From: an uncultured archaeon
GTDB lineage: Archaea; Thermoproteota; Nitrososphaeria; Nitrososphaerales; CALBXV01
Direction of reading: 5' to 3'
DNA: 19,320 nucleotides
Assembly (NCBI GenBank): GCA_937890045.1
Contig: CALBXV010000691.1
Location: 1 to 19,320 of the forward strand
Below, in pieces: positions 843 through 18,049 of this stretch; the first letter of the stretch is position 1; every line of letters begins with the position of its first letter. A program made the translations under genes and the position numbers. The notes under the pieces were generated by a model. That model saw nothing but the letters and a program-made list of their open reading frames with translations, was not told the origin of the DNA and did no database searches.

Positions 843-2175
843 TATCTATTTCCTCATTCTGCAACCATACTTTTCGTGTTTTAATCCATGACTTCGGAAA
901 AACAAACGGCTTACCAGTTACAATATCAATCAAACCTTTCTCTCCACTAAAATGTGGTGTTCTCCAACCAAAACGAAAACATTTCTTTAAATCTCGTTTC
1001 CATTGCTTTAATTGACTCTCTGATGCATTACCATGCCATTGTGCTTGCATTTGTAAAAATAAATTATCTATCCGGTCATTAACAAGTTTCATTATCCTCA
1101 AACCTTCTTGCTTTACTTCTGCTTTGGTCAAACCAGATTTAGTAATCAATACTGTCAATAAACAAGGATAAGTATTATTATATCTATGAAAATTTTTAGT
1201 AAATGCCGCTGTACCATTAAAAAAAGCATCTGTGACTGATTTAGTATCAAAAATCAAATGACCCTGATTGAAAATTTCACACTCATGATGAGTCGTTTGT
1301 TTAGTACCACCATACGGAGCATGAGCATCTGGAAATTTTGTATGTAACTTGGAAAGAAGATAAGCTGTACTTTGTGCTTTCTTCCAAGAATGTTGTTTAT
1401 CATGGTAATGAGTATAACAACCATTCTTTTCATTTATATCTTCAGAAAACTGAGCAAAATAAGACAAAAGTTGTACAATGATTTTGTCACGAACAGATGG
1501 TGCTGGAGGTCTAACACCAATTGGTATAATAAAATCGCGCATAAAAGAATCATAAGTTTTCTCTATATCCGTACGATTAATATTTTCAAAACTACCACTC
1601 CATTCTCTTTGCAAAGAAAGTTTAATAGTTTTCAACCAATCTGCGTTACCATTGCCAGCTGCAGCATTATGATTATTCAACTTATGTTTTAATGCGGCTA
1701 CATGATTTGCATTACACCCCTTTTCTTCTTCAATAACATCTACAACAATTTCAAAATAATTATTATGCAAATATGCTGTTAAGCGATGATGGCCATCAAA
1801 TATTCTATATCTCCATTTCTTCTTGGATTTATCATAATACTTTTTAACTACTATTGGGTGAGTACTATAATCAATATTATCTGGACAATTAAGTGCATCA
1901 TTAAGTTCGTCTTGTGAAAATTCAACTAATAACGTATCACGAATTTGCTCTTCATTAAAAGATTCAACATCACATGAATATATTGGTATAGCAATCCGTT
2001 CTTTGAGCTTTAACTTAGAGTTTTTATACTTATTTTTTGAACGATCAATCGTATAAGAAAGATTCCAATTATCTAATGATACTTTCTTTGTCTTTGACTT
2101 GCGTGTAACACTACTAACTGCACGACGCGTCTTTCTATTAGGTGTAGATACTTTCTTTTTAACTCTGCCTGTCAT
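832..2175 (-). CDS. ParB/Srx-superfamily protein with DGHHR motif, 447 aa
   Basis: The N-terminal 60 residues are strongly basic (many Lys/Arg/Ser/Thr), as in a DNA-binding tail. Residues about 60-170 look like a ParB/sulfiredoxin-type fold: IPIYSCDVESF, then a conserved strand (HPIVVKKYY) and the diagnostic RIFDGHHRLTAYL at about 124-136. In this superfamily the Asp-Gly-His/Gln-His-Arg motif binds nucleotide, and members include CTP-binding ParB, ParB-like nucleases and Dnd/DGQHR proteins. The roughly 250-residue C-terminal half is not recognised. I start at the ATG at 2175, because AAGGAG lies nine bases upstream; the longer frame from TTG at 2199 would place that ribosome site inside the gene. 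A promoter lies directly upstream at 2213-2241. A nuclease or nucleotide-dependent DNA-binding role is inferred, and no partition locus is visible. Confidence 0.7.
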   Translation of the reverse strand: MTGRVKKKVSTPNRKTRRAVSSVTRKSKTKKVSLDNWNLSYTIDRSKNKYKNSKLKLKERIAIPIYSCDVESFNEEQIRDTLLVEFSQDELNDALNCPDNIDYSTHPIVVKKYYDKSKKKWRYRIFDGHHRLTAYLHNNYFEIVVDVIEEEKGCNANHVAALKHKLNNHNAAAGNGNADWLKTIKLSLQREWSGSFENINRTDIEKTYDSFMRDFIIPIGVRPPAPSVRDKIIVQLLSYFAQFSEDINEKNGCYTHYHDKQHSWKKAQSTAYLLSKLHTKFPDAHAPYGGTKQTTHHECEIFNQGHLIFDTKSVTDAFFNGTAAFTKNFHRYNNTYPCLLTVLITKSGLTKAEVKQEGLRIMKLVNDRIDNLFLQMQAQWHGNASESQLKQWKRDLKKCFRFGWRTPHFSGEKGLIDIVTGKPFVFPKSWIKTRKVWLQNEEIDNEE

Positions 2176-2212
2176 AATATAATACTCCTTAATTATCAAT
2201 TAACACACTACT

Positions 2213-2241
2213 ATAATAACACAACTCTTTTCCAAATACAA
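2213..2241 (-). promoter_or_regulatory. Promoter P1, TTGTAT-17-TATTAT
   Basis: Reading leftward, -35 TTGTAT (2241-2236) and -10 TATTAT (2218-2213) are separated by 17 bases. The -35 sits in the extended motif TTCCTTGTAT, which recurs at 6669-6678, 9064-9073 and 18035-18044. Downstream comes ATAGTAG and then a leader sharing TTGATAATTA and GGAG with the leader of the promoter at 6646. The site fills the gap between the gp44 stop (2250) and the ParB-like start (2175). Confidence 0.75.
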
Positions 2242-2249
2242 GGAAAAAG

Positions 2250-3188
2250 TTATACAAACTCACACTCCATCATCATCTCTGTTAAACAAGCAACCATATT
2301 CACCTCTTGGTCTGCAACGAACGCAGCTTTATAAGAGTAATCTGCAATCGTTAATACTGCTTGTGGGATACTTTTCTTCTCAAACTTACTATATAGACTG
2401 TCATAGATTTGACGATACAATCGAACATGATCGTTATCAATATTCTCAGCCACCCACTTTCTCATGGATGTAAAATCTTTTTTCTTCAATGCAACAAACA
2501 ACTCTTTAAGATTCTCCTCAGATGCTTGTGTGAGAATATCTTCGTCTATCGTTCCACCTACAGAATGCTTCTGTAACTCGTTTATCACTCTCCTGAAATC
2601 TGGAAAGTGTTTCATAATTAACTGTGCAACTACATCTGGTTTATACTTAACTGTTTCATTATCCAAGATACCAGTTGCTATCTTTAAAAATCTTTGAGCT
2701 AATACTGGTTTGTCATCTTTCTTAATCTTGAAATCGACTACACTACATCTGGAATGTAATGCTGGTATGATTCGATTCTTAAAGTTACAAGTGAAGATGA
2801 AACGACAGTTCTGTGCGAACTGTTCGATAGAACCCCTCATGGCTGGTTGGACTGATTCGGGGTTCATGTAATCAGCCTCATCAATAATAAGCACCTTCTT
2901 CCCACCTGATAGACTTACAGTAGACGCAAAGTTAGTAATGGTAGTTCTCAAGGTGTCAATCATACGACCTTCATCACTACCATTTATCATCAGCCAGTCA
3001 CACTCTAGCTGGTTACACAAAGCTTTGGCTATTGTAGTCTTTCCTATCCCGGGACTCCCGGTGAGAAGAAGGTTCGGTATCTCACCCTTTTCAACTATCT
3101 CTGAAAAAACTTTTTGTGTATTATCTGGTAATACACAATTCTCTACCATCTTTGGTCTATATTTTTCGACCCATAAAATATCATTCAT
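2250..3188 (-). CDS. 44: Sliding-clamp loader large subunit (gp44), AAA+ ATPase
   Basis: ATPase subunit of the T4-type clamp loader, which opens the gp45 ring and places it on primer-template DNA. Visible motifs, numbered from the chosen ATG: clamp-loader N terminus WVEKYRPK (6-13), Walker A GSPGIGKTT (44-52), Walker B IIDEAD (101-106) and sensor/arginine-finger HSRC (145-148). The 312-residue length is close to T4 gp44 (319). I start at 3188, where AGGTG stands nine bases upstream; an upstream in-frame GTG at 3200 overlaps that site. In T4, gene 44 is followed by 62 (the small loader subunit) and regA. Here it is followed by a promoter and an unrelated gene, so the small subunit is not adjacent. 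The gene overlaps the preceding 37-aa micro-gene by 8 bases, suggesting coupled translation. Confidence 0.95.
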   Translation of the reverse strand: MNDILWVEKYRPKMVENCVLPDNTQKVFSEIVEKGEIPNLLLTGSPGIGKTTIAKALCNQLECDWLMINGSDEGRMIDTLRTTITNFASTVSLSGGKKVLIIDEADYMNPESVQPAMRGSIEQFAQNCRFIFTCNFKNRIIPALHSRCSVVDFKIKKDDKPVLAQRFLKIATGILDNETVKYKPDVVAQLIMKHFPDFRRVINELQKHSVGGTIDEDILTQASEENLKELFVALKKKDFTSMRKWVAENIDNDHVRLYRQIYDSLYSKFEKKSIPQAVLTIADYSYKAAFVADQEVNMVACLTEMMMECEFV

Positions 3189-3294
3189 TTGTATTATCAC
3201 CTTTACATAAATATAAAATCCACATAATAACTGAAACTAAACTAATCGCTTTAATCATTGTGATTGTATCACTTGTCCATTCTATAACTGTCAC
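3181..3294 (-). CDS. Predicted 37-aa single-span membrane protein
   Basis: A small frame starting at GTG (3294) with a strong AGGAG site six bases upstream. The stop overlaps the start of gp44 by a few bases. The product is MTVIEWTSDT followed by a hydrophobic stretch of about 17 residues (roughly 12-29, with ISLVSVIMWILYL) and a short polar tail. It is best read as a tiny one-span membrane peptide, or alternatively as a coupling leader that delivers ribosomes to gp44. The ribosome site and the tight packing are seen directly. No family is recognised. Confidence 0.55.
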   Translation of the reverse strand: MTVIEWTSDTITMIKAISLVSVIMWILYLCKGDNTNE

Positions 3295-5309: not shown

Positions 5310-6608
5310 TTAGAATGGTACTTCTTCTTTTGTTTCTTCAATCTTAACTTCTTCCTGCTCTTCATCACTCGGATTTAAATCTTCTATTGATACACCTGCA
5401 TCAATCTTAGTATAAAGATCCGTAAATGATTCTTTTGTTTCATCATCAAATCGTTCAAGACACATTGCTACTGCCTTCAACTTATCATTAAAGATTGAGA
5501 ACGACTTTGTAATATCAATCAGGCGTCGTGTAGTAACAATTTCATCCACAGCACCTTCTTTAAAAGACCTACGAATAACGTCAGCCCAACGAACCAACTT
5601 ATCAACAAACTCATCCTCATCCAGTTCACGCATAGCAAATTGCTTCTTGAGTATCTTTGTTTCCATTTTAGTAGTTGGATACTCTTGATAGAACGTAGCA
5701 GAGAACCTATCCAAGAATGCCTCATTCAATATGTTAGTACCAATGAAACGACCGTCATCAGAACCCTTGCCCTTAGTATTAGCTGTTGCGATTACAGTAA
5801 AACCTGGTGCTGGATAAACCACTTCATTAATCTTTTTAAGATAGATTGGTTTGCCTTCAAGCACCGGTTGTAGACACATGATCTTATGAGAAGCCAAATC
5901 AATTTCATCTACCAACGCAACTGAACCATTACGCATCGCATTAATCATAGGACCGTCTTGCCAAACAGTCTCACCATCAACTAAACGAAAACCACCCAAG
6001 AGGTCATCTTCATCAGTTTCAACTGTAATGTTTACACGAACCAAATCACGTTTTAATTTAGCACAAACTTCATGAATCATAGAAGTCTTGCCGTTACCAG
6101 AAAGTCCCGTAACAAATACTGGATAGAAAATCTTACTTCCAATAATAGTTTTAATGTCTTTGAAATGCCCCCAAGTAACATATTGAGGATCACTCTTTGG
6201 AATAAGTGAAACAGTATTTGATTTGGTTTTTACTGCTGGCTTAGAAACAGTTTTTGGTTTTTCAAAAGAGGCCTTAGCTTCTTTTGCTTTCTTCTCCCAC
6301 TTTTGTGCAACTTCATCAGTAGAAGAAATTACATCCATATCACTTTGCAGAGTTTTTTTCTTCTCAGCTTTCACAACTGCTGGTGAAGCTTTAACTGTTT
6401 TTTTACCAGAGCCAAAGGTGTGTTCTGCCGGGAAAGCATAGATGCCTTTATCAACTTTCACATGACGCAATACATGAGTAGAAATTGTTCTAAACTGGCT
6501 TTCATTCAAACCAATTTCTTCAGCAATTGCCTTTGCACTTACTTTGGTAAAGTTCATGTTACCAAACTTTTTAATAATTGCTTCTTTAAACTTTTCGCGA
6601 TTGTTCAT
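5310..6608 (-). CDS. cobS: CobS/MoxR-like AAA+ ATPase, 432 aa
   Basis: Residues 1-65 form a small winged-helix-like domain, followed by a Lys/Ala/Ser/Thr linker to about 135. The AAA+ core has Walker A GLSGNGKTS (168-176), Walker B ALVDEIDLA (231-239), sensor ATANTKGKGSDDGRF (274-288) with the GT..LNEAFLDRF signature typical of CobS-type MoxR ATPases, and the arginine finger in DRFS. Such genes are commonly labelled cobS (cobaltochelatase subunit) in marine T4-like phages. MoxR-class ATPases work with VWA-domain partners, and a VWA protein is encoded immediately upstream (6690-9011), which supports a paired machine. The C-terminal 30 residues are very acidic. The gene has its own promoter (6646-6674) and a GGAG nine bases before ATG. 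Chelatase activity is doubtful: no other cobalamin gene is present in the window. Confidence 0.88.
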   Translation of the reverse strand: MNNREKFKEAIIKKFGNMNFTKVSAKAIAEEIGLNESQFRTISTHVLRHVKVDKGIYAFPAEHTFGSGKKTVKASPAVVKAEKKKTLQSDMDVISSTDEVAQKWEKKAKEAKASFEKPKTVSKPAVKTKSNTVSLIPKSDPQYVTWGHFKDIKTIIGSKIFYPVFVTGLSGNGKTSMIHEVCAKLKRDLVRVNITVETDEDDLLGGFRLVDGETVWQDGPMINAMRNGSVALVDEIDLASHKIMCLQPVLEGKPIYLKKINEVVYPAPGFTVIATANTKGKGSDDGRFIGTNILNEAFLDRFSATFYQEYPTTKMETKILKKQFAMRELDEDEFVDKLVRWADVIRRSFKEGAVDEIVTTRRLIDITKSFSIFNDKLKAVAMCLERFDDETKESFTDLYTKIDAGVSIEDLNPSDEEQEEVKIEETKEEVPF

Positions 6609-6645
6609 AATATATAGCTCCTAATTATCAATCATTTATACTACT

Positions 6646-6674
6646 ATTATAGCAAATTTTAGTCCCCAATACAA
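6646..6674 (-). promoter_or_regulatory. Promoter P2, TTGTAT-17-TATAAT
   Basis: Leftward -35 TTGTAT (6674-6669), 17-base spacer and a perfect -10 TATAAT (6651-6646), again within TTCCTTGTAT and followed by ATAGTAG. It lies between the VWA gene stop (6690) and the CobS-like start (6608). It probably drives the operon CobS-like, secreted protein, 135-aa protein, gp45, micro-genes and gp44. TATAAATG, a near match to a T4 late promoter, occurs just downstream in the leader, but I do not call it. Confidence 0.8.
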
Positions 6675-6689
6675 GGAACAATGTGGCTT

Positions 6690-9069: not shown

Positions 9070-9138
9070 GGAAAAAGATAGCCTGTAAGTTGTTGTATTT
9101 AAAGAAGTTATAAAGATATTTGTAACTCGTTGTAAAAT

Positions 9139-9170
9139 AAGGGGTTACAGATTTGTGTCCATAACCCCTT
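9139..9170 (-). terminator. Rho-independent-like terminator after hsp20
   Basis: AAGGGGTTA (9139-9147) pairs perfectly with TAACCCCTT (9162-9170) around a 14-base loop. Reading leftward, the stem is followed by ATTTTA, a short T-rich tract. It starts 17 bases past the hsp20 stop codon and separates this unit from promoter P3. AT pairs on both flanks could extend the stem, so it might also act in the other direction. Confidence 0.7.
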
Positions 9171-9186
9171 TATTTACAAGTACTTA

Positions 9187-9612
9187 TCACTTAATGTCTA
9201 TCGTTTTGCCCTTATTTGGCTCTTTCTTTGGTAAAACGATATACAAAATACCTTCTTTCATCTCAGCTGTTACTTTGTCAGCATTGACGCCTCTTGGAAA
9301 ATTACGGAAAGACTGATCCGTTTTTACACCATAAAACTGAGAATCTGAATCAGATACCTCTTTCTTACATTTGATAGAAAGTGTACCATCTTTGAATGTA
9401 AGATCAATATCTTTCTTAGTCATTCCTGGCATAACAATATCCAATGTATAAGAATTATCAGTTTCATTCCAACGATACTTATTAGTTGGTCTATGTCCTA
9501 CACTAGTAGTCCACGGGTCATTATTCATAAGATAGTTGTCAAAACGATCCCAGTTTGTCCATGTAGGAAAGATGTCATTAAAAAGGTCATTGTGTTTAAT
9601 TAAACTAGTCAT
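9187..9612 (-). CDS. hsp20: Small heat-shock protein Hsp20 (alpha-crystallin family)
   Basis: A 141-residue ATP-independent holdase chaperone. The short N-terminal arm is aromatic-rich (DLFNDIFPTWTNWDRF). The alpha-crystallin domain spans about residues 43-137, with the family-typical YTLDIVMPGMTKKDID strand and KEGILYIVLPKKE (the G-x-L signature). The tail ends in an I-x-I motif (TIDIK), which in this family docks neighbouring dimers. Hsp20 is a frequent gene of marine T4-like phages, where a role in assembly or stress during infection is presumed. It is its own transcription unit: a consensus promoter at 9656-9684, GGAG eight bases before the ATG, and a terminator at 9139-9170. Confidence 0.93.
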   Translation of the reverse strand: MTSLIKHNDLFNDIFPTWTNWDRFDNYLMNNDPWTTSVGHRPTNKYRWNETDNSYTLDIVMPGMTKKDIDLTFKDGTLSIKCKKEVSDSDSQFYGVKTDQSFRNFPRGVNADKVTAEMKEGILYIVLPKKEPNKGKTIDIK

Positions 9613-9655
9613 TTTTTATACTCCATTTAAATTATTATTATATGCTACTATAGAT

Positions 9656-9684
9656 ATTATAAGATTTGAATATCCACTTGTCAA
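9656..9684 (-). promoter_or_regulatory. Consensus sigma70-type promoter of hsp20
   Basis: Leftward TTGACA (9684-9679), 17-base spacer and TATAAT (9661-9656): both hexamers are perfect and the spacing is optimal. It differs from the TTGTAT promoters at the -35 but shares the CCTTG run-in and an ATAGTAG element a few bases downstream of the -10. Strong early expression by host RNA polymerase is expected. Confidence 0.85.
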
Positions 9685-9690
9685 GGTTTA

Positions 9691-9864
9691 TTAAAAAAAA
9701 TTAATTTTTCCCGTACAACTGGGTTTAGTGCTTTCTTTAATACATGGTATTTTTCCTTTACCTACAAGATGATCTATCGGCCACCACTTAAACGGATCAA
9801 TAATAAAAAATAAACCAAATAAAAGAGTAGTAATCATTGTAGCATATATCATTTTTTTAACCAT
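9691..9864 (-). CDS. Small membrane-anchored protein, 57 aa
   Basis: Begins MVKKMIYATM and runs into a hydrophobic span at about residues 5-25 (TTLLFGLFFIIDPF), followed by about 30 polar residues with two Cys (at PCIKESTKPSC) and several Lys. The Lys at residues 3-4 before the span predict that the C-terminal part is periplasmic, where the Cys pair could form a disulfide. The ATG at 9864 shares bases with the upstream stop (TAATG). An extended start at TTG 9876 is less likely. It follows a lipoprotein gene, so a spanin-like pair was considered, but the periplasmic part is short and has no coiled coil. Family not recognised. Confidence 0.6.
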   Translation of the reverse strand: MVKKMIYATMITTLLFGLFFIIDPFKWWPIDHLVGKGKIPCIKESTKPSCTGKINFF

Positions 9865-10058
9865 TATAGATTCCAACCAAGACCTATTCTAAAACTATCA
9901 ATTGTAGAATGTCCATCATAATCATCTCTTTCGTCTAAATTAATTCCCATATGCATACGAAGTTGATCAGGTGTTAAAATTTGTGAACTAGTTCTACTAG
10001 GTCTTTCAGAAGCACATCCAACAAACACTAGCATCATTAATACTGCTATAAATTTCAT
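9864..10058 (-). CDS. Predicted small lipoprotein, 64 aa
   Basis: The N terminus MKFIAVLMMLVFVGC is a short signal peptide ending in a lipobox-like FVGC, so Cys15 is the predicted lipidation site. The position -3 Phe is unusual but tolerated. The mature part of about 50 residues is polar (SERPSRTSSQILTPDQLRMH) and ends in RIGLGWNL, a beta-like terminus. The start overlaps the FmdB-like stop (ATGA), with a strong GAGGAG site, and the stop overlaps the next start (TAATG). Membrane-anchored periplasmic or outer-membrane protein of unknown role. Confidence 0.65.
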   Translation of the reverse strand: MKFIAVLMMLVFVGCASERPSRTSSQILTPDQLRMHMGINLDERDDYDGHSTIDSFRIGLGWNL

Positions 10059-10267
10059 TCCTCTTTCTCCTCTTTTTTTATTGTCTTACTACTATATCCA
10101 TCCTTATACCAACCGCCACCTTTCAACTGAAAAGAAGATAAATCGAGTATTCGACTACATGACTCTTTACATTGAGGACATATCAACTTAACATCTCTTT
10201 GTTTTATACTTCTCATATTTTCATAAACTTCATCACATTGTTCACAATGATAACTATATAAAGGCAT
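10055..10267 (-). CDS. FmdB-family zinc-ribbon protein, 70 aa
   Basis: Begins MPLYSYHCEQCDEVYENMRS, the typical start of the FmdB/CxxC regulatory-protein family, with zinc ligands C8, C11, C30 and C33. The tail includes LKGGGWYKDGYS, also common in the family, and ends in Lys/Glu-rich residues. These small proteins occur in many bacteria and phages; their molecular function is poorly defined. The gene is locked between neighbours by TAATG and ATGA overlaps, suggesting coupled translation with the PDZ-like and lipoprotein genes. Confidence 0.85.
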   Translation of the reverse strand: MPLYSYHCEQCDEVYENMRSIKQRDVKLICPQCKESCSRILDLSSFQLKGGGWYKDGYSSKTIKKEEKEE

Positions 10268-10638
10268 TATTTTAATTCCGAATAATTTGGTGGGAAAAAT
10301 ACATTATGTTTCAAATTTATTTGATTCAATGTAATCTTCCCATCTTTTTTTAATATTTTAAACTTGGGTTCATCATTGGGCATTAATGCCATCAAATTAT
10401 ATATTGTAATATCTTTTCCATTCATTTCTAAAATAATGTCCCCTTTATGAATACTCCATCTTCTAAAGGCACTCAACTTTCTAACATCTGTTATTATAAA
10501 ATCACCATTAGAATTTTCTATTACTGTAATTTTTAAATTACTTAAATATATTGGTGCGAAATCCATAACAACTCTATTCGGCCATGCATATGCATATGAA
10601 TTAAATGCTAACAACAATATGATAATTAAATATTTCAT
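10267..10638 (-). CDS. Exported PDZ-like domain protein, 123 aa
   Basis: A signal peptide (MKYLIIILLLAFNSYAYA, cleavage after AYA) precedes one domain. Residues about 46-106 look like a PDZ fold of the periplasmic protease/secretin type: SIHKGDIILEMNGKDIT, then a helix (NLMALMPNDE) and the strand pair FKILKKDGKITL. No protease domain is attached, so it may be a peptide-binding adaptor in the periplasm. Its start codon and leader derive from the duplicated gp46 3' end (10633-10686), meaning its translation start looks copied from, or ancestral to, that of the DUF7220-like gene. It is linked to the FmdB-like gene by TAATG. Confidence 0.65.
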   Translation of the reverse strand: MKYLIIILLLAFNSYAYAWPNRVVMDFAPIYLSNLKITVIENSNGDFIITDVRKLSAFRRWSIHKGDIILEMNGKDITIYNLMALMPNDEPKFKILKKDGKITLNQINLKHNVFFPPNYSELK

Positions 10639-10686
10639 TCTCTGGTTACCTGTGTGAAGTTTTTAACTTTTTCTACTATTAACTTA
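10633..10686 (-). repeat. Direct repeat copy B: remnant of the gene 46 3' end
   Basis: This 54-base stretch matches 10892-10945 at 50 positions, offset 259 bases. Read leftward it still encodes KLIVEKVKNFTQVTRE and a stop, the same as the last residues of gp46 except Arg for Gln. It begins two bases after the DUF7220-like stop codon and ends in the ATGAAA start of the PDZ-like gene. It is not translated as part of a larger protein; it is a scar of duplication. Confidence 0.92.
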
Positions 10687-10687
10687 A

Positions 10688-10897
10688 TTACTTTCCCCGA
10701 TTAAAACATCTTCGTACAATATACACTCTAATAATAGATGTAACAGTCAATATCATTACTATCTGAACATTCTGAAATAAAGTAATCTCTATATCATACA
10801 AAGGAAAAATTAACAACTGTACAGCAAGAGCCACAAAGAAACCAGATATAACTGTGGTAAACGATTCTATCAAACTCTGAAATTTACTCTGTTTCAT
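10688..10897 (-). CDS. DUF7220-like small membrane protein, 69 aa
   Basis: Two predicted membrane spans: residues about 12-32 (FTTVISGFFVALAVQLLIFP) and about 44-60 (VQIVMILTVTSIIRVYI), then a basic tail (VRRCFNRGK). The pattern of an N-terminal ESFTTVISGFFVA, a central FPLYDIEITLFQN and SIIRVYIVRRCF matches, from memory, the DUF7220 family of phage and plasmid membrane proteins of unknown function. The start overlaps the gp46 stop (ATGA). The gene plus one copy of the gp46 tail forms a 259-base unit bounded by the direct repeats, strongly suggesting it was inserted between gp46 and the PDZ-like gene. Confidence 0.75.
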   Translation of the reverse strand: MKQSKFQSLIESFTTVISGFFVALAVQLLIFPLYDIEITLFQNVQIVMILTVTSIIRVYIVRRCFNRGK

Positions 10898-10945
10898 TCT
10901 TGTGTTACCTGTGTAAAGTTTTTAACTTTTTCTACTATTAACTTA
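10892..10945 (-). repeat. Direct repeat copy A: gene 46 C-terminal codons
   Basis: The in-gene copy of the 54-base repeat, covering the gp46 end (KLIVEKVKNFTQVTQE, stop) and the overlapping ATGAAA start of the DUF7220-like gene. Compared with copy B, one change is synonymous (TTT/TTC for Phe) and three clustered changes alter the Thr codon wobble base and Gln to Arg. Confidence 0.92.
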
Positions 10946-12594
10946 TCTGGAAACTTATCATCAAGTATATCCAACTTATGTGATATGATAAATAAATTAG
11001 TGTTCTTCAATATGTTAAACAACTTCATCAAATCATCCACACCAGCTTGGTCTAAGCTCGCATCAAACACTTCATCTAATATAAGAAGATTCACATTAAC
11101 AGAATTTCTCATAGATGCTATATCTCGCCATGTCAATAACAAAGCTATATCAATACGTTTTTTCTCTCCTTCTGAAAAAGAATAATAAGAAAACTGATCC
11201 CTATGTCTGCTCTTAATGGTTTCTTGAAAATTCTCATCCAATTGAAAATTCACAAAGAAATCCATATCCTTAAGATAATCATTTACATGCTTATTAATAA
11301 CTGGTAAATACTTCTTAATAATTCGTGTTTTGATACCAGTATCATTCAATATATTACTCAATACATCATAATAAAATTTCTGTTCTACATATTGAAACCT
11401 TGTAGATTTAGAATCTTCAAATTCCTTATGCAATACATTCATAGATTCTTTTTTAATCTCAACTTGAAAAGATTCTAAATCAGAACTTAACTTATGTATA
11501 AAAGAATTATGAGCCTGAATATTACTTAACTTTTGTACTACCTGTGTTTCTTCTTTTTGTATCTTTTGAGTACACTTGGATATCTCTCCTAACCTATTAT
11601 ATACTTTTGTGACTTCCTTTTCAATCTGACCCAGACCATAATTCATTTCATCAATACCCTTGTCAACTTCTTTCAACTTACCCTCTTTAAATTCTTCATC
11701 AATATCCTGCTCACAAGTTGGACAGTTTTCTTTATCCTCAAAGAACTTTTTATCTCTGGTAAACTTTCTCAGGTTCTTTGCTATCTGTGAACGATAATTA
11801 TCCAGCTCTTGGTTTTTCTTTTCAACGGAAGTCTTATCTTTAATAGACTTGAAAAGTATATCAACTGTTTTCTGATGATTATCTATCTCTTTATTTAGTC
11901 TTGCAATTTCTCGTTCTGTTTCTTTAATCTTATCCAAATCAGATTTACGTTTCTGTTCAGATTCTTCTTCCATAGCTTTCAAATGTTTTTCCTGTAATGT
12001 AATCTTTTCTTGAAGAAGTTTAATCTCATAATCCAACTCATTCATTTCTTCTTTCAATGTTAATGATCTATCTTTTAATAGAGTTTTCATTACAGAGAAT
12101 ATACCAATGTCCAATATATCTTCGATAATGATTCTTCTATCATTAGCTGTTAGTTGCATAAATGGAACAAATGAAGCAGAACCTAATACAACAATCTGTG
12201 TGAATGATTTAAAATTTAGCTTCAGTACTTTTTCTTCAAGATACTTTTGATAGTCCATAGACTTAGCATCTTGATTAATTAAGATATCGTTATGATAAAT
12301 CTCAAACAGATTGGGTTTGATACCACGGCGTACTTTCCATTCAGCCGTACCAACAGAAAATTCAATCTCTGTTAAAGTATCTCTCTCATTAACAGAATTG
12401 ACTAGTTGGCCTTTATTAACTTTTTTGAATGGTTTTCCAAATAAAGAAAAAGTAATAGCATCAATCAAAGTAGATTTACCAGCACCATTTTTACCAACAA
12501 CCAACATCATTGCTTCTTGGTCTAGTTTTACTTCAATAAATCTATTACCAGTTGCGAGGAAGTTTTTCCATCTAACAGTTTTCAATCGAATCAT
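10894..12594 (-). CDS. 46: Recombination nuclease ATPase subunit gp46 (Rad50/SbcC-like)
   Basis: SMC-like ATPase that partners gp47 to resect DNA ends for T4-type recombination-dependent replication and host DNA breakdown. Motifs in order: Walker A GKNGAGKST (34-42), long coiled coil about 175-400, interrupted by the zinc-hook CPTC (291-294), ABC signature FSEGEKKR (473-480), Walker B LLILDEVFD (503-511) and the H-loop in FIISHK (535-540). The 566-residue length is close to T4 gp46 (560). The start lies three bases after the gp47 stop, as expected for a co-translated complex. Its 3' end is duplicated 259 bases downstream around a small membrane gene. Confidence 0.96.
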   Translation of the reverse strand: MIRLKTVRWKNFLATGNRFIEVKLDQEAMMLVVGKNGAGKSTLIDAITFSLFGKPFKKVNKGQLVNSVNERDTLTEIEFSVGTAEWKVRRGIKPNLFEIYHNDILINQDAKSMDYQKYLEEKVLKLNFKSFTQIVVLGSASFVPFMQLTANDRRIIIEDILDIGIFSVMKTLLKDRSLTLKEEMNELDYEIKLLQEKITLQEKHLKAMEEESEQKRKSDLDKIKETEREIARLNKEIDNHQKTVDILFKSIKDKTSVEKKNQELDNYRSQIAKNLRKFTRDKKFFEDKENCPTCEQDIDEEFKEGKLKEVDKGIDEMNYGLGQIEKEVTKVYNRLGEISKCTQKIQKEETQVVQKLSNIQAHNSFIHKLSSDLESFQVEIKKESMNVLHKEFEDSKSTRFQYVEQKFYYDVLSNILNDTGIKTRIIKKYLPVINKHVNDYLKDMDFFVNFQLDENFQETIKSRHRDQFSYYSFSEGEKKRIDIALLLTWRDIASMRNSVNVNLLILDEVFDASLDQAGVDDLMKLFNILKNTNLFIISHKLDILDDKFPDKLIVEKVKNFTQVTQE

Positions 12595-13842: not shown

Positions 13843-14766
13843 TCATTTGACACTTACCATCTCCTTTACGATATTAGAAATTATAAACTTTAAATTTTTA
13901 AACTCACGCAATCTTCGTAAAGTGTATGGAAGCCAATCTTCACCAAATGGAACATATATCCTAACACAATAACCTTGCTTTAACAAGGAAGAACTTAAAT
14001 CACGGCGAATCCCGTATAACATCTCTATAAACAAATCATTCTTTTTCACATTATCATGCCCAACAATAAATCTATTTAAATAACTAAGTATATCATTTAT
14101 CAGTTCTTCATCATGTGTACCAATAGCTGGAATTGGTGCTGAATCATTTTTAAGATATTGATAAGACCTACATCTGTTTGATAACAAACGTAAAGCATTC
14201 TTTACAAATATATCATGTATTGTATTTTCTCCAAGAAATTTGTCTTGATATGCTTTTGTAATATGTTCTTTATAAGCACCCTTCACCAATCTAACAGATA
14301 TTTCTTTATCCATCATAAGAGATAAATCTTTTTCTGTTCTATGTAGATTTGATTGTAGAGCTATTCCAATATTCGGAAATTGTTTTCTTAACTTTATAGC
14401 TAAGTCAATCGTACCTTGTGTAACAGATGAATCTTCCATATCCAAACGTACTGTCATGCCATGAAGATATGCTCTATGCACAATATCACTCAATCGTGCA
14501 TAACACCTATCTTTATTTAATAACAATCCTAATTGTGTTGGTTTAATGGATATATCTAATGGATAGTTAACCGACGCATAATATTCAATTATATCAGCAT
14601 ACTGTTTTAAAGCTTTATTACAATCCACATCAGTCTTACTAATCTCACCTAGATAGTCAATCGTTATATCATAACCATCAGTAATGAGTTTACTGATTAC
14701 AGGTATGGCTGAATCAAAATCATGTCCAGCAATAAATCTCTTTGCTAAGGGATATAAAAATTTCAT
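13843..14766 (-). CDS. putA: Proline dehydrogenase (PutA-type FAD domain), 307 aa
   Basis: Oxidises L-proline to pyrroline-5-carboxylate, passing electrons via FAD to the quinone pool. It is the monofunctional PRODH barrel alone, with no aldehyde dehydrogenase domain. Family signatures are all present: DYLGE (37-41), SIKPTQLG (73-80), VRLDMED (106-112), IALQSNLHRTEKDL (135-148), VRLVKGAYKE (158-167), IGTHDE (215-220), EMLYGIRRDL (248-257), YVPFGEDW (271-278) and the substrate-carboxylate YTLRRLRE (281-288, Arg pair). No key residue seems lost, so an active enzyme is likely. It overlaps gp55 upstream by ATGA, so it belongs to a replication/late-switch operon. Inferred as an auxiliary metabolic gene; it could boost energy or alter proline pools. 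Confidence 0.93.
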   Translation of the reverse strand: MKFLYPLAKRFIAGHDFDSAIPVISKLITDGYDITIDYLGEISKTDVDCNKALKQYADIIEYYASVNYPLDISIKPTQLGLLLNKDRCYARLSDIVHRAYLHGMTVRLDMEDSSVTQGTIDLAIKLRKQFPNIGIALQSNLHRTEKDLSLMMDKEISVRLVKGAYKEHITKAYQDKFLGENTIHDIFVKNALRLLSNRCRSYQYLKNDSAPIPAIGTHDEELINDILSYLNRFIVGHDNVKKNDLFIEMLYGIRRDLSSSLLKQGYCVRIYVPFGEDWLPYTLRRLREFKNLKFIISNIVKEMVSVK

Positions 14767-18005: not shown

Positions 18006-18011
18006 ATGTGT

Positions 18012-18040
18012 ATAATAACATAATGGATAAAGAAATACAA
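18012..18040 (-). promoter_or_regulatory. Promoter P4, TTGTAT-17-TATTAT, next to the uvsY start
   Basis: Leftward -35 TTGTAT (18040-18035) in TTCCTTGTAT, 17-base spacer, -10 TATTAT (18017-18012). Only ACACAT separates the -10 from the uvsY ATG. It occupies the 44-base gap after the tail gene stop and probably launches the long uvsY-to-gp46 operon. Confidence 0.75.
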
Positions 18041-18049
18041 GGAAGAATA

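Follow-up and report, generated by a model that had tools for sequence, protein, structure and literature searches.

A gene end that recurs beyond an additional gene has been described for mycobacteriophage Island3, in which genes 67 and 68 have a 60-bp sequence in common at their 3′ ends; Brujita, a related phage without gene 68, contains one copy, and the authors propose recombination between sequences of approximately 50 bp, leaving gain versus loss undecided (PMC3029335). PeSL-mediated modular shuffling in T4-like phages involves units of promoter and stem-loop (Arbiol 2010 and Comeau 2014, as excerpted from PMC4503421), and free-standing homing endonucleases of these phages are, in the relevant excerpts of PMC2988022, inserts between conserved genes, accompanied by exchange of the flanks. 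Morons are small genes present in one phage and missing from relatives (PMC3029335, in part), and in the hypervariable regions of pelagimyophages, conserved modules are split by variable genes; in the excerpted text on these regions, gp46 is never mentioned and joints are not analyzed (PMC7029224).

Here, we describe a locus in a window of 19,320 nucleotides (the whole stretch of DNA that was analyzed), whose phage is, judged by its gene content, a marine T4-like myovirus, like the pelagimyophages. An islet of small genes lies between the genes for gp46 and HSP20, and a detached end of gp46, hereafter the scrap, runs into the start of a PDZ-like gene. The features are listed below (L numbers denote loci used for comparison).

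9187–9612, minus strand: HSP20 gene, opposite border of the variable islet (PF00011, E = 1.4e-15)
9691–10058, minus strand: lipo and m61, two small islet genes (m61 96.2% identical to L027)
10055–10267, minus strand: zinc-ribbon gene ZnR (PF09723, E = 6.6e-11; 95.8% DNA identity to L027)
10267–10638, minus strand: PDZ-like gene with signal-like N terminus, the probable newcomer (PF00595, E = 1.5e-4)
10633–10686, minus strand: repeat copy 2 (scrap), detached gp46 tail (KLIVEKVKNFTQVTRE, stop) and ATGAAA of the PDZ start
10686–10687, minus strand: joint, where homology switches between PDZ-less relatives and a unit of the L059 lineage
10688–10897, minus strand: DUF7220 gene, 69 aa, in ATGA overlap with the gp46 stop (PF23858, E = 1.7e-23; phrog_4276)
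10892–10945, minus strand: repeat copy 1, intact gp46 end and ATGAAA of the DUF7220 start
10894–12594, minus strand: gp46 gene, intact (SbcC-like recombination endonuclease subunit; phrog_77, E = 2.2e-162)

We read this arrangement, with a probability of roughly 60%, as the scar of a gene gain between two phages in which the PDZ-like gene is the newcomer, a polarity opposite to that of the preliminary description. As in Island3, a 3′-terminal piece of the upstream gene, about 50–60 bp long, recurs beyond an extra gene (54 nt in the window, 50 of them identical). In Island3, however, it is the inserted gene whose own coding end forms the repeat, whereas the window holds a detached tail before the next gene, and a similar tail occurs at a second genomic site. 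Three aspects are new with respect to the Island3/Brujita precedent: the donor junction that is implied, the polarity, and the role of the tail as a tracer between two sites; within the open-licence literature searched, this case was not found in print. With PeSL shuffling, as far as the excerpted source describes it, the locus has in common that small genes move among related T4-like phages and do so at recurring sites, but the shared piece is the end of a core gene, a simple scan found no terminator-like site at 9100–11100, and neither early promoter nor stem-loop was seen at the borders. The PDZ-like gene resembles a moron, in the partial account considered, by its absence from relatives, but it depends on an overlapping operon; simple scans revealed neither a terminator-like site at 9100–11100 nor a strong promoter before the gene in the window (best match there 9/12), whereas the second site does have a promoter. 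For comparison with homing endonucleases, no endonuclease match was obtained for the DUF7220 and PDZ-like proteins in Pfam or PHROGs. A promoter-like TTGACA-17-TATAAT sequence (12/12) lies upstream of the HSP20 gene (9656–9684, minus strand).

The DUF7220 assignment is well above its cut-off (83.2 bits versus 28). The PDZ domain match falls just below (22.5 versus 23.2 bits) and the predicted structure is too poor to decide on a PDZ fold (mean pLDDT 40.5); we therefore speak of a PDZ-like gene only. Among the INPHARED matches listed, the best gp46 was that of Synechococcus phage Sf-CH11 (49.2%). A proline dehydrogenase gene (13843–14766, minus strand; PF01619, E = 9.6e-29) lies in the replication-gene region near gp47.

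The repeat was confirmed by recomputation in the dimensions first reported, i.e., 54 nt, 50/54 identical positions, and a start-to-start spacing of 259 (10633–10686 and 10892–10945). It was likewise confirmed that, in the gp46 frame, the downstream copy reads KLIVEKVKNFTQVTRE followed by a stop, and that its final ATGAAA is the start of the PDZ-like gene; the copy codes for VTRE, and the intact C-terminal end is VTQE. Chance does not explain the repeat, since it scores 80.6 bits as the top direct repeat of the window, compared to a maximum of 37.4 among 100 dinucleotide shuffles. IMG contig 3300020423_000210, a separate contig possibly from the same water sample, matches the window with 99.93% identity over 9,585 bases (seven mismatches, no gap) and carries the identical scar. 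An assembly error was rejected on this basis, and with nothing found in its favor, an artefact of assembly or chance is barely conceivable. A second tail copy was present in one of 97 distinct gp46 3′ ends, namely that of the window's phage (L001), with flanks of varying length, so that tail duplication as a general habit was rejected as well. A scan of 37 loci (310 kb, some near duplicates) found repeats of the scar kind in the window and L001 only. The other repeats, none of them scar-like, comprise L025 (67% over 368 bases) and L050 (69% over 547), a 115-base direct repeat in L020 and L021 (6851–6965 and 9406–9519, 86% identical, away from ORF ends), and 2172–2248 and 6605–6681 of the window (74%). 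The latter two belong, with 18006–18047, to leader-like repeats near minus-strand gene starts that are 67–74% alike.

To place the scar among its relatives, the neighboring genes of 63 IMG/VR loci with gp46 relatives were charted; in 32, the gp46 3′ end was present with ≥65% identity, one being the window's phage and 31 others. DUF7220 directly follows gp46, with a single tail, in 11 of the 31 (L002, L003, L004, L005, L006, L008, L020, L021, L026, L027, and L048), which represent about eight lineages (L002/L003, L020/L021, and L026/L027 are near duplicates) and are scattered across the gp46 tree on several of its deep branches. In two more (L017 and L019), a 2OG-Fe(II) oxygenase gene (PF13759 in L017, E = 1e-10) separates gp46 from DUF7220, and 18 lack DUF7220 behind gp46, some of them with just 130–270 bases downstream. 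A second gp46 tail was found in none of the 31. Relatives at 81–89% gp46 identity have one tail each, mostly with DUF7220; no near-identical relative without the scar was found. One of the 18, L007, retains the first 17 bases of DUF7220 behind a gp46 whose extended end now reads VMNETE (5690–5710), which marks a DUF7220 deletion. The gp46 tree places the window with L002–L007 (support 100/99), and this clade of seven rows has DUF7220 in six, the seventh being the L007 stub, and PDZ in two. Mosig, a cultured phage with 43% gp46 identity, has a 2OG-Fe(II) oxygenase gene behind gp46 and DUF7220 elsewhere. In L006, the gp46 frame from 3131 is interrupted within the gene, 387 aa being followed by a 179-codon frame with the gp46 end, perhaps through a sequence error.

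These distributions bear on the history first proposed, in which a phage with a direct gp46–PDZ junction gained DUF7220 together with a gp46 end, i.e., the same joint with the other phage as recipient. It was to be contradicted by related phages that carry DUF7220 here without tail duplication, and the 11 loci are such phages. Of the insertion scar, gene gain by recombination stands, but the single-tail DUF7220 loci and the L007 stub argue against DUF7220 as the insert, as does its presence in most of the clade compared to two rows for PDZ. However, DUF7220 requires at least five changes on the gp46 tree, versus three for PDZ, and the identity of the window's copy to L006 (94.7%) and L069 (96.9% over 195 bases) exceeds that of the window's gp46 to any relative (nearest L005 and L002, 85–89% at the DNA level). 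DUF7220 is thus mobile, too, and has been exchanged in the window's phage, perhaps as a late arrival, and its high identity speaks against a simple order of events. Taken with the gp46-tail/PDZ unit of the L059 lineage described below, this leaves DUF7220 as the insert an unlikely but serious alternative.

The boundary itself is precise to the base. Alignments with the PDZ-less L002, L004, and L006 span gp46 and DUF7220 and end at 10687, whereas the alignment with L059 begins at 10686 and covers the scrap, PDZ, and ZnR down to 10052. Both the DUF7220 stop and the PDZ start are kept, and as at most one base is shared at the joint (by eye), it looks illegitimate.

The second site was found in five contigs (L059–L063) that are identical over 1 kb and hence counted as one lineage. 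Here, PDZ and ZnR stand behind some 80 bases of gp46 tail, without a gp46 gene. Only the last 33 residues of gp46 were found by searches of the L059–L062 contigs (15 to 38 kb), and in the 5.4 kb of L063 examined, the tail is the sole gp46 part. The preliminary description had postulated a former direct gp46/PDZ ATGA junction; such a junction is indeed implied, because the tail in these contigs runs to the PDZ start. Upstream of the L059 unit lies a TTGACA-17-TATAAT promoter match (12/12), and downstream a permease-like gene with a weak phosphate-transporter match below the cut-off (PF01384, E = 8e-6). Of 218 relatives of this gene, 80 were taken and 27 of these inspected. L171, L174, and L176 have 240–270 bases of the upstream region in common with L059, and L172 and L173 have 53. 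In all five, this homology ends 42 bases before the L059 promoter, and the permease-like gene follows 115 bases on without the unit; a promoter-like stretch at this unit-less site was read by eye. At this place, L177 and L179 instead carry a gene homologous to the window's lipo (52% and 42%), so small genes are common to both sites. PDZ-ZnR of L059 and L005 are 96.5% identical over 601 bases, and the L059 tail and the L005 gp46 end 88.8% over 89; the tail/PDZ/ZnR unit was thus shared recently, its tail stemming from another gp46 lineage or having diverged separately. L059 also encodes an aminotransferase-like protein (2035–3240, minus strand; PF00155, E = 1.1e-68), by its look a putative 5-aminolevulinate synthase, an enzyme reported for pelagiphage-like contigs in the excerpted text of PMC11480375.

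In total, PDZ was found in ten viral contigs: the window's phage, the five of the L059 lineage, L005, L069, and L026/L027. The protein had no match in INPHARED and at least ten distant matches (29–37%) in GTDB genomes. L005 has the order gp46-DUF7220-TAGAGA-PDZ without a full tail, in L069 a peptidase M15 gene precedes DUF7220, which is joined to PDZ without a tail, and L026/L027 have a divergent PDZ behind DUF7220, in L027 without a tail. TAGAGA, a word picked after being seen, is the hexamer immediately preceding the start in such gp46 tails; of 640 distinct ATGAAA frames, five are preceded by it, namely four gp46 tails and the L005 joint. As the word is otherwise confined to gp46 tails among these frames, the L005 joint probably retains six tail bases. 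Furthermore, L005 has TAGAGAATGAAA on both sides of DUF7220, and recombination between these copies would yield an L059-like gp46–PDZ junction. An in-place junction of this kind was found in none of the loci examined.

The tails were then compared directly. Over 54 nt, the window's own gp46 tail and the scrap are identical at 50 positions, the own tail and L059 at 49, and the scrap and L059 at 50. These distances form nearly a star, so that the donor cannot be named by distance. The four differences between scrap and L059 tail are all synonymous in the gp46 frame, suggesting that both diverged while still within working gp46 genes, although four sites are few. At the codon that is CAA in the window's gp46, and also in L017 and L019, the scrap, L059, L002, L004, and L005 all have AGA. 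Near identity of the copies had been taken as a sign of a recent event or of ongoing recombination; with the scrap just as close to the L059 tail, it is no evidence of a recent duplication in place. Such a duplication, by which a gp46-DUF7220-PDZ phage copied its own 54-base gp46 end into the DUF7220–PDZ joint, could start from the tail-less order of L005 and would account for the match of own tail and scrap. However, the scrap codes for VTRE as in other lineages, not for VTQE, it is equally near to L059, and the L059 lineage shows tail and PDZ travelling together, which makes this origin rather improbable.

For the gain of PDZ, we infer two parents. The first would have had the order gp46-DUF7220-ZnR, which is the arrangement of several relatives, and in the second, gp46 would have led directly into the PDZ gene, the two overlapping by ATGA. 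Joined across little or no common sequence, the 54 terminal bases of that second gp46 would have come to lie, together with PDZ, immediately behind the DUF7220 stop, leaving gp46, DUF7220, and PDZ all intact. The tail piece may owe its retention to the end-to-start overlap and any ribosome site of PDZ that it carries. In favor of PDZ as the newcomer are the DUF7220 distribution with the L007 stub, the 10687/10686 boundary, the detached tail before PDZ in L059, the synonymous differences, the shared AGA, TAGAGA in L005, and the mixed ancestry of the islet. Against it stand the missing in-place junction, which leaves the donor inferred, the mobility of DUF7220, the star-like distances, CAA in L017 and L019, the weak ribosome site of the scrap, and the tail-less PDZ genes of L069 and L027.

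Ribosome-site energies, computed against a 16S end, were −8.2 kcal/mol for the L059 gp46 end (CAGGTGAC) and −3.9 for the window scrap (CAGGTA); among 400 random positions, 5% reached −7.5 and a quarter −4.1 kcal/mol. The corresponding PDZ values are −7.3 in L027 and −1.0 in L069. By these energies, a role of the gp46 tail as ribosome site is plausible for L059 and weak for the window, where no start codon was seen within the scrap, which is probably an untranslated leader. This touches on the reading that a regulatory function, as leader or ribosome site, preserves the repeat independent of descent. The L059 tail would fit, as it follows the 12/12 promoter and holds CAGGUGAC, among the strongest 5% of random positions. 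However, the window site is weak, PDZ occurs without a full tail in L005, L069, and L027, and an exact pattern scan of viral contigs gave 66 matches, six of them detached tails that all abut PDZ and no other gene, although more diverged tails escape such a pattern. A regulatory element at unrelated positions, which the preliminary description had named as an argument against itself, was thus not seen; we rejected this reading, which we regard as highly improbable.

The islet as a whole is mosaic, its nearest relatives differing gene by gene. HSP20 is nearest to L006 (87.6%), and ZnR and m61 to L027, as listed above, whose gp46 protein is 67% identical. The ZnR tree agrees with L027 as nearest (99/97), and lipo matches L027 across only 93 of 195 bases. 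From these patterns, the stretch between gp46 and HSP20 appears to be a place for small-gene swaps at start/stop overlaps, by which small genes are exchangeable within tightly overlapping operons with gp46 unharmed. The scar is ordinary in kind and unusually readable. Joints in mosaic genomes often leave no trace of their formation, and the detached gp46 piece is searchable, records the former neighbor of a mobile small gene, and bears on the direction of exchange. As a tentative generalization, genes whose start overlaps the coding end of their upstream neighbor may move together with that end, so that tails of core genes would act as portable translation leaders. If true, the gp46 tail would mark the route of genes out of the gp46 flank, to the promoter/permease-like site and into the gp46 flanks of other phages, and detached core-gene tails would betray the former neighbors of many small phage genes.
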